Part shown: positions 14,522-15,214 of the stretch, in pieces | How positions within the stretch are numbered: position 1 is the first letter of the stretch | Layout of the letters: the number at the start of each line of letters is the position of its first letter | NCBI RefSeq assembly: GCF_020103725.1 | Contig: NZ_JAHXBG010000001.1 | Coordinates: 496,001-560,000 of the forward strand | Source: Hyalangium gracile | Lineage (GTDB): Bacteria > Myxococcota > Myxococcia > Myxococcales > Myxococcaceae | DNA length: 64,000 nucleotides | Direction of reading: 5' to 3' | Notes under the pieces: model-generated | Databases searched by the model: none | What the model saw: the letters and a program-made list of their open reading frames with translations, nothing else | What the model was told of the DNA's origin: nothing | Translations under genes and position numbers: made by a program

Positions 14522-14803
14522 GCGCGAGCGACCGGGAGAGGTCCCAAAGCCATCAGCCTCAGCGCCTCGAGCGCGGGAGCGGCGTTGCGCCGCTCTGGAT
14601 GCAATGCAGGACACTCTCCGCAAGGTAGCCTGTTCTTGGCTCTCTTCCCTCGATCAGTACTATGACGGGGTGTAGAGCTGAGCCAACGACGCAACCGCCG
14701 TTTCTCCACCCCGTCATAGTACTGATCGAGGGGAGAGCCGGTGAGGCTACCGTGCCCCAGGTGAGCAGGTGGTGCCTTGGGGGCCTCCCTCGATTGCTCG
14801 CGC
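14522..14803 (+). ncRNA. Retron msr-msd unit 1
   Basis: Closing repeats a1 (14522-14541) and a2 (14784-14803) pair over about 18 of 20 positions, counting two G-U pairs. Inside, the msr has a perfect 8-bp hairpin (GAGCGGCG/CGCCGCTC near 14577-14595). The msd forms one long hairpin: GGTAGCC pairs with GGCTACC, GGCTCTC with GAGAGCC, and then 14647-14672 pairs perfectly with 14707-14732 (26 bp). The tip loop is 14677-14703. AGC triplets at 14548-14550 and 14555-14557 are candidates for the branching G. Layout (a1, msr, msd, a2, then the RT gene on the same strand) and size fit msDNA of the Mx162/Sa163 kind (about 160 nt of DNA). Boundaries and branch point are inferred from sequence only. Confidence 0.9.
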
Positions 14804-14932
14804 CCGTCGCACCCTCCCGCCAGTGGCCTCGGACACATCGACGGGGCCTCACGGGTGGTGTAGAAAACCGGACTGTCTGGCTGATTACCCCACGGCCAGC
14901 AGGGCGGGTACGACAGAGCAAGAGTCCTCACA
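14804..14932. other. Spacer between the two msr-msd units
   Basis: This 129-bp stretch separates the two units. It starts with CGTCGC and a C-rich run similar to what follows unit 2, so the duplication probably extended a little past a2. The rest does not resemble the sequence between unit 2 and the RT gene. No open frame or clear promoter is visible. Confidence 0.45.
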
Positions 14933-15214
14933 ACGCGAACGATCGAGAGAGGTCCCAAAGCCATCAGCCTCAGCGCCTCGAGCGCGGGAGCGGCGCTGCG
15001 CCGCTCTGGATGCAATGCAGGACACTCTCCGCAAGGTAGCCTGTTCTTGGCTCTCTTCCCTGCGCGGGCCCTCTAGCTCGCCGGGGAGCTGAACCAACGA
15101 CGCAACCGCCGTTTCCCCAGCGAGCTAGAGGGCCCGCGCAGGGGAGAGCCGGTGAGGCTACCGTGCCCCAGGTGAGCAGGTGGTGCCTTGGGGGCCTCCC
15201 TCGATCGTTCGCGT
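14933..15214 (+). ncRNA. Retron msr-msd unit 2
   Basis: This is a second unit exactly 411 bp after the first, with the same 242-nt distance between a1 and a2. a1 (14933-14952) and a2 (15195-15214) pair over 19 of 20 positions. The msr and the outer msd (14953-15061) match unit 1 with a single change (C for T in the msr hairpin loop). The tip loop (15088-15114) differs by one base. The 3' msd flank from 15140 to the start of a2 is identical. The msd stem, however, is a different sequence: 15058-15081 pairs perfectly with 15120-15143 (24 bp), with GGGG/CCCC above it, and shares only the basal CCCT/AGGG with unit 1. The RT start codon is 43 bp after a2. Confidence 0.9.

Follow-up and report, generated by a model that had tools for sequence, protein, structure and literature searches.

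Tandem msr-msd units with paired but unlike stems in a type XIII retron of Hyalangium gracile and its relatives

The stretch of DNA analyzed here (the window; 64,000 nucleotides, with coordinates counted from its start) comprises positions 496,001-560,000 of the forward strand of contig NZ_JAHXBG010000001.1 from the Hyalangium gracile genome (GCF_020103725.1; 11.7 Mb in 81 contigs). It encodes a retron-type reverse transcriptase (RT) that is preceded, on the 5' side, by an msr-msd region with an a1/a2 inverted repeat and a long msd hairpin, and genes for HEAT-ARM and SWIM partner proteins lie beside the RT gene (Table 1). All three protein models of PADLOC type XIII (HEAT-ARM, SWIM, RT) are matched and, judging by this gene content, the system is a type XIII retron. 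The msr-msd unit is present in two tandem copies, both intact, in front of the one RT gene, as the first-pass annotation of this DNA had stated. No Rfam family reached its gathering score in the msr-msd region; the sub-threshold matches, which involved only microRNA-type hairpin models and one viral element, were taken as chance. A search of the host genome for more copies of the units returned solely the two units and their hairpins on the opposite strand. Elsewhere, this genome encodes two further retron-like RTs, L110 (G000:C9:112500-118500) and L111 (G000:C28:52000-58500), the former a type XIII-like paralogue with a SWIM homologue that is 34% identical and one long hairpin unit.

Table 1 Genes and msr-msd features of the retron locus (window coordinates)
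Feature	Position	Strand	Remarks
HEAT-repeat / WD40 protein (HEAT-ARM_XIII), 2205 aa	5997..12614	+	PADLOC HEAT-ARM_XIII E=0, 1591.7 bits; Pfam HEAT_2, WD40
SWIM_XIII protein, 612 aa	12611..14449	+	PADLOC SWIM_XIII 4.2e-161; Pfam SWIM at its cut-off; SWIM zinc finger at residues 480-512; predicted PCNA-like clamp fold at residues ~40-333
msr-msd unit 1 (a1 to a2)	14522..14803	+	
CAGC priming motif, unit 1	14554..14557	+	predicted priming guanosine 14556; alignment columns 33-36, 90% or more
Unit 1 variable stem, left arm (stem type A)	14648..14672	+	positions 28 to 4 from tip
Unit 1 conserved 26-nt tip	14677..14702	+	
Unit 1 variable stem, right arm	14707..14731	+	
Linker with its own leader	14804..14932	+	resembles its counterpart in H. 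versicolor
Vestige resembling the SWIM gene 3' end	14834..14863	+	by eye; followed by a leader like that of the L005 and L049 single units
msr-msd unit 2 (a1 to a2)	14933..15214	+	
CAGC priming motif, unit 2	14965-14968	+	predicted priming guanosine 14967
Unit 2 variable stem, left arm (stem type B)	15059..15083	+	
Unit 2 conserved 26-nt tip	15088..15113	+	
Unit 2 variable stem, right arm	15118..15142	+	
Retron reverse transcriptase, type XIII, 481 aa	15258..16703	+	PADLOC RT_XIII 1e-158; Pfam RVT_1 2.5e-22

The closest described systems are Retron-Mxa1 (Mx162) and Retron-Sau1 (Sa163), both myxobacterial, for which passages of PMC6868368 report a CAGC priming motif, a precursor of ~241 nt, the order msr-msd-RT and an N-terminal extension of the RT; by analogy with this motif, one guanosine in each unit of the window is the predicted priming site. 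The window shares the CAGC motif, unit size and layout with these retrons but has two units where Mx162 and Sa163 have one. The Myxococcus xanthus locus L020, which we take to be Mx162 itself, encodes an RT 76% identical to that of the window and has the same unit layout with one unit. Engineered retron arrays ('multitrons'), in which several msr-msd units are served by one RT, resemble the window in the number of units per RT; unlike these constructs, the array described here is natural, and its tip and base are conserved while the middle stems have diverged. Our literature search found nothing on natural tandem msr-msd units, on type XIII retrons with SWIM or on a retron clamp, although some queries were narrow, so that absence from print is not implied.

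The first-pass annotation had noted an exact 411-bp distance between the units, a one-base difference over 14542-14650, another in the tip, an identical 3' flank and unrelated stem arms, and a base-by-base comparison bears out each of these points. At a distance of 411 bp, the msr together with the foot of the msd stem (14542-14650) is identical between the units at 108/109 positions, the loop (14675-14702) at 27/28 and the 3' part (14729-14785) at 57/57; the corresponding values are 7/24 for the left stem arm (14651-14674) and 11/26 for the right arm (14703-14728). The outer arms are moderately diverged (16/20 identical in a1, 14522-14541, and 15/18 in a2, 14786-14803).

Each stem had also been described as pairing perfectly with itself. 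Pairing is kept in both stems, but it is nearly perfect rather than perfect, with one internal mismatch each, a T.C three pairs from the tip in unit 1 and a C.A five pairs from the tip in unit 2. Within the 24 positions of the variable part, 24/24 pairs of unit 1 and 23/24 of unit 2 are Watson-Crick, and a repeat search independently recovered both hairpins (35-nt arms, 94% complementary, 26 nt between). When folded as single-stranded DNA, the msd strands score z -12.0 (unit 1) and -11.1 (unit 2), and neither score was reached by any of 200 shuffles; in both strands, a 139-nt stretch folds into a lower stem that is conserved, followed by the variable duplex and by a tip that forms a small hairpin of its own. 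In the minimum-energy fold of the joint 693-nt RNA, the msd stems stay local and 105 pairs form across the two units, between their outer arms. For each unit to form individually, it would have to be transcribed separately or to fold during transcription.

To place the pair among its relatives, RT matches were collected from 75/96 genomes in a family search (E 0.001; many of these represent other retron types) and from 69/195 genomes in a phylum search (E 1e-120), a scan of genome contigs gave 42 loci, and the stretches upstream of the RT matches were examined in all cases except G021. This yielded 48 non-redundant loci in which the RT reading frame is complete. Of these, 42 were usable, having one or more hairpin units and an upstream stretch of 600 nt or more. 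Most of the usable loci have one unit (37/42), in contrast to the tandem msr-msd of the window; two units are present in 5/42, and no locus has more. Thus, the search for tandem units in related myxobacteria that the first-pass annotation had proposed was productive, with four further loci where two complete units and one RT are kept: Hyalangium versicolor (L004 = L047), G010 (L103, L120), G095 (L107, L121) and a locus from a metagenome-assembled genome (MAG), L028. The nearest named relative is H. versicolor (RT 91% identical), and the two form sisters in the RT tree (support 95/91). The two units are not an assembly accident, since H. versicolor, whose genome was assembled separately, carries a homologous pair joined by a linker of similar sequence. 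Linkers are alike within the window/H. versicolor group and within G010/G095 and unlike between the two groups, and three separate origins of arrays are probable, with only 21 nt of the L028 linker entering this comparison.

Several loci fall outside the 42. L105 and L025 lie on contigs that start at and inside a unit, respectively, and in L027, L030, L031 and L032, whose RTs are related to type XIII, the SWIM gene abuts the RT gene and no such msd hairpin was found nearby in the stretches examined. L076-L100 and L102, with partial RTs and partly redundant with other loci, have one unit each (L088 by BLAST only), and L116, L118 and L119 have one hairpin each; in L117, where the RT is related to type XIII and the SWIM gene directly abuts it, the stretch examined contains no hairpin. 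Contigs of five other genomes (L104, L105, L106, L101 and L025, the last a MAG) end within or near an msr-msd unit, as contigs do at repeats, and may hide more arrays.

The paired but unlike stems had been regarded as peculiar to the pair in the window. The survey does not support this view as stated: stems of single-unit relatives are likewise hypervariable and paired, quite apart from the four additional arrays. Among 48 units from 43 loci (37 distinct stems; positions counted from the tip), the 26-nt tip spacing is constant and the tip core is conserved, and in the middle stem nearly every position has all four Watson-Crick pairs. At positions 4-27 of the 37 distinct stems, 98.4% of the cells are Watson-Crick, with 90 pair types, compared to 27.7-35.9% and 42-62 pair types when the arms are slid by 1-3, and 50.5% (largest value, 53.8%) when partners are shuffled. 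Since the stem is hypervariable yet paired in all relatives examined, a paired stem of free sequence is a trait of the retron type and not of the pair. The type XIII stems analyzed here hold very few mismatched or wobble pairs, in contrast to retron msd stems in general, which are described as containing such pairs in passages of PMC6868368.

The pace of this turnover can be gauged against the RT gene. In rising bins of RT divergence at fourfold-degenerate sites, the mean stem difference is 0.06, 0.15, 0.24, 0.27, 0.34, 0.47 and 0.64 (0.06 at a fourfold divergence of 0.05-0.1 and 0.47 at 0.3-0.4), with the pairwise counts between loci being non-independent through shared ancestry. The stem thus seems to diverge about as fast as fourfold-degenerate sites, a rough estimate inasmuch as these sites are biased at 70% G+C, and the msr diverges about five times slower than the stem. 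The stem of L110 is identical to its H. versicolor counterpart, so such turnover is not seen in every retron of these two genomes.

The few non-Watson-Crick cells (48 units, positions 0-28) consist of 22 C.A in the RNA sense (G.T in msDNA), 1 G.U and 4 other; in the 37 distinct stems, these classes count 14, 1 and 4. The excess of C.A would suit selection on the DNA hairpin and is, at best, a lead: the C.A cells are confined to three positions in a few clades, and at position 30, the foot of the stem, 40/48 units have a T.G pair (G.U in RNA), which speaks against a simple rule of selection on DNA.

In all five arrays, the two stems are unrelated, as alike as shuffled sequences, and all five upstream units keep a paired stem, tip and msr. 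Like-msr pairs were counted at limits of 1, 2 and 3%. Among single-unit loci, 122 pairs have an msr difference of 3% or less, and their largest stem difference is 0.43; in the 4/5 arrays within the same limit, the units differ in the stem by 0.61-0.74. The fifth array, L028, has an msr difference of 0.23 and a stem difference of 0.78, and between the two Hyalangium-group arrays, three unit comparisons exceed a stem difference of 0.5. Judging by these distances, the array units share their msr as if recently split and differ in the stem as if long split. With the msr in four arrays far more alike than the stems predict, it follows that exchange between units occurs. One further asymmetry involves GATC, which is present in stem A and absent from stem B: of the 48 units, only three have it in the stem, all of them upstream units (window, G010 and G095; 3/5 upstream and 0/5 downstream).

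Traces of exchange were found by comparing the window with H. versicolor; the two linkers resemble each other (p=0.003, the lower limit attainable with 300 shuffles). At six sites (alignment columns 1, 7, 11, 14, 64 and 274), each unit groups with its positional counterpart in the other species; two msr sites (columns 79 and 87) group by species; and columns 130, 143, 147, 153, 184, 190, 194 and 207, which make up four stem base pairs, group crosswise, so that each window unit joins the non-corresponding unit of H. versicolor (unit 1 with unit 2, unit 2 with unit 1). No two-by-two stem site groups otherwise, and the 52 other variable columns are not two-by-two. The stem of window unit 2 matches that of H. 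versicolor unit 1 at 17/26 positions (p=0.002); between window unit 1 and H. versicolor unit 2, the ungapped match is weak (10/26) and the gapped one has p=0.002, so that this match leans on the gapped alignment and on the single-unit locus L005, which resembles stem A (20/26), as a link. Another single-unit locus, L049, resembles stem B (15/26 and 19/26). Same-position comparisons give 6/26 and 12/26 (p=0.29 and 0.16), and the summed stem score is 12 crosswise vs 0 parallel, with the crosswise score reached by 0/20000 shuffles and an excess p=0.002. As judged from this comparison, in which only four stem base pairs are informative and species-wise sharing amounts to two sites, the stems have traded places between the units in the two sister species.

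A double crossover in the identical flanks would, in principle, be enough as a route for the swap. The earlier proposal that the stem was replaced as a unit survives in one respect, namely that the stems behave as exchangeable blocks; replacement from outside the array is not supported, with no donor found in IMG/VR or the family genomes. By eye, the leader before unit 2 resembles those of the L005 and L049 single units, the leader before unit 1 rather resembles those of L050-L053, and the linker seems to hold the end of a SWIM gene. These features suit an origin of the array by joining two diverged copies of the locus, with exchange afterwards.

Because both units are intact, the single RT most likely makes two different msDNAs, which would have the msr, base and tip in common and differ in the duplex. 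We consider it probable that the locus is a natural two-unit type XIII retron array of this kind, with two msDNAs from one RT and stems that are exchangeable blocks. Each msd hairpin would then consist of a constant base, a constant tip and, between them, a variable middle of ~25 bp that needs only to pair. Purifying selection and exchange between the units would keep them alike outside the stem; the stems stay different and, as the two sister species show, can move between units as blocks. We would expect the RT and the partner proteins to recognize the constant parts while holding the duplex regardless of its sequence. A model for a constant tip combined with a free stem is Retron-Kva2 (type IX), where, according to passages of a preprint (PMC13405049), a partner protein reads the conserved msDNA tip and touches the stem at the backbone; from the same passages, this retron has other partners (HEPN, WH) and apparently a single unit. 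The constant tip and base of the type XIII hairpins would be the natural protein sites.

Compatible with the array reading itself, and given by us a slightly less than even chance, is the possibility that the stem is unconstrained beyond pairing, that the second unit contributes dosage at most and that the two stems split long ago and drifted. Single-unit stems do diverge freely, with pairing, at about the rate of fourfold sites, and array stems are no less alike than shuffled ones, showing no avoidance of likeness beyond randomness. However, the msr of four arrays has diverged far less than their stems would lead one to expect and, despite exchange, the stems have been made alike in 0/5 arrays, few as these are. 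The same 5/5 arrays with unlike stems could instead reflect selection for diversity, whereby two duplexes would widen the range of a sensor, for example, of phage enzymes that modify, cut or bind particular DNA. Phage triggers of retrons are described elsewhere, in passages on a phage N6-adenine methyltransferase acting on GATC in the msd (PMC12548924) and on a phage DNA-binding protein (PMC13405049). The distribution of GATC between upstream and downstream units and the enrichment of short palindromes in the stem arms (see below) point in the same direction, but the GATC numbers are tiny and drift explains unlike stems as well. Also to its disadvantage, we know of no phage-defence test of type XIII retrons, and on balance we regard selected diversity as possible but somewhat unlikely. 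An extension of this idea, in which type XIII retrons in general are variable-stem systems, with a constant base and tip around a duplex of free sequence that is shuffled between tandem units, and whose RT presents a small, clamp-held repertoire of duplexes selected for difference, similar to antigenic or bait diversification, is more doubtful still.

Unlike stems could also result from survival, if identical long hairpins mispaired in the RNA or recombined away, such that only arrays with unlike stems persisted. The joint RNA fold is in line with this, as cross-unit pairing there involves the near-identical outer arms and leaves the msd stems local, but the msr and 3' parts, identical between units, already offer enough length for recombination and mispairing, and we consider this explanation quite unlikely. 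Pairing of the outer arms is less perfect in unit 1 than in unit 2, as might be expected of a decaying, silent copy; against this, unit 1 has an intact stem, tip, msr and priming motif and the upstream units of 5/5 arrays keep paired stems, which makes a silent unit 1 very unlikely. The sharp borders of the variable part would also fit spacer-like capture of stems as blocks from foreign or host DNA. IMG/VR contains no exact 20-mer of either stem, an 18-mer of stem A (one mismatch allowed) occurs in 1/92 family genomes, its own, and one-mismatch matches of stem B in the family genomes are no commoner than those of a reversed control. With no donor in IMG/VR or the family genomes and with divergence that is gradual with species distance, the probability of capture appears close to negligible.

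In the reading that we prefer, an array of two msDNA-producing units with exchangeable stems, the duplex would be held irrespective of its sequence, and the SWIM protein is of interest in this respect. Its AlphaFold2 model (26 homologues, pLDDT 83.6) is predicted, as a single chain, to have a PCNA-like sliding-clamp fold: residues 40-333 align with PCNA (2ix2_B) over the whole PCNA chain (VIA-align; Z 15.9, rmsd 2.7, 212/245 residues, 11% identity), and the best Foldseek match of the model has an E of 3.6e-7. Sequence searches up to E 1 retrieved no PCNA or beta-clamp family in Pfam with 26 SWIM members and no clamp among PDB sequences, where the only match was Cas6 at E 0.66. A clamp-like fold would suit sequence-independent holding of the duplex: if such a clamp held the stem but did not read it, the freedom of the stem sequence would be explained. 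If confirmed, this fold would be a first structural hint as to how type XIII retrons hold msDNA.

The natural two-unit arrays in several lineages are natural experiments in which host, RT, msr and tip are the same and the duplex is different. They offer a way to test if retron sensing depends on the sequence of the duplex, if a single RT naturally serves two msDNAs and by what route long hairpins acquire new sequence with both arms still matched.

With regard to composition, short palindromes are enriched in the stem arms (14648-14731, 15059-15142 and 22 representative stem arms, which are not fully independent): 4-mer palindromes number 73 vs 48.7 in dinucleotide shuffles (0/500), and 6-mer palindromes, 24 vs 13.4 (p=0.002). 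CTAG occurs 10 times in the arms, vs 0.17 expected at the window's rate and 1.2 from arm composition, and GTAC 7 times, vs 1.0 and 1.2, respectively. In the window as a whole, CTAG is depleted (22 vs 96 expected), and 12/22 of these sites are located in the segment 29000-32000, where the G+C content is lower (about 0.59-0.64).
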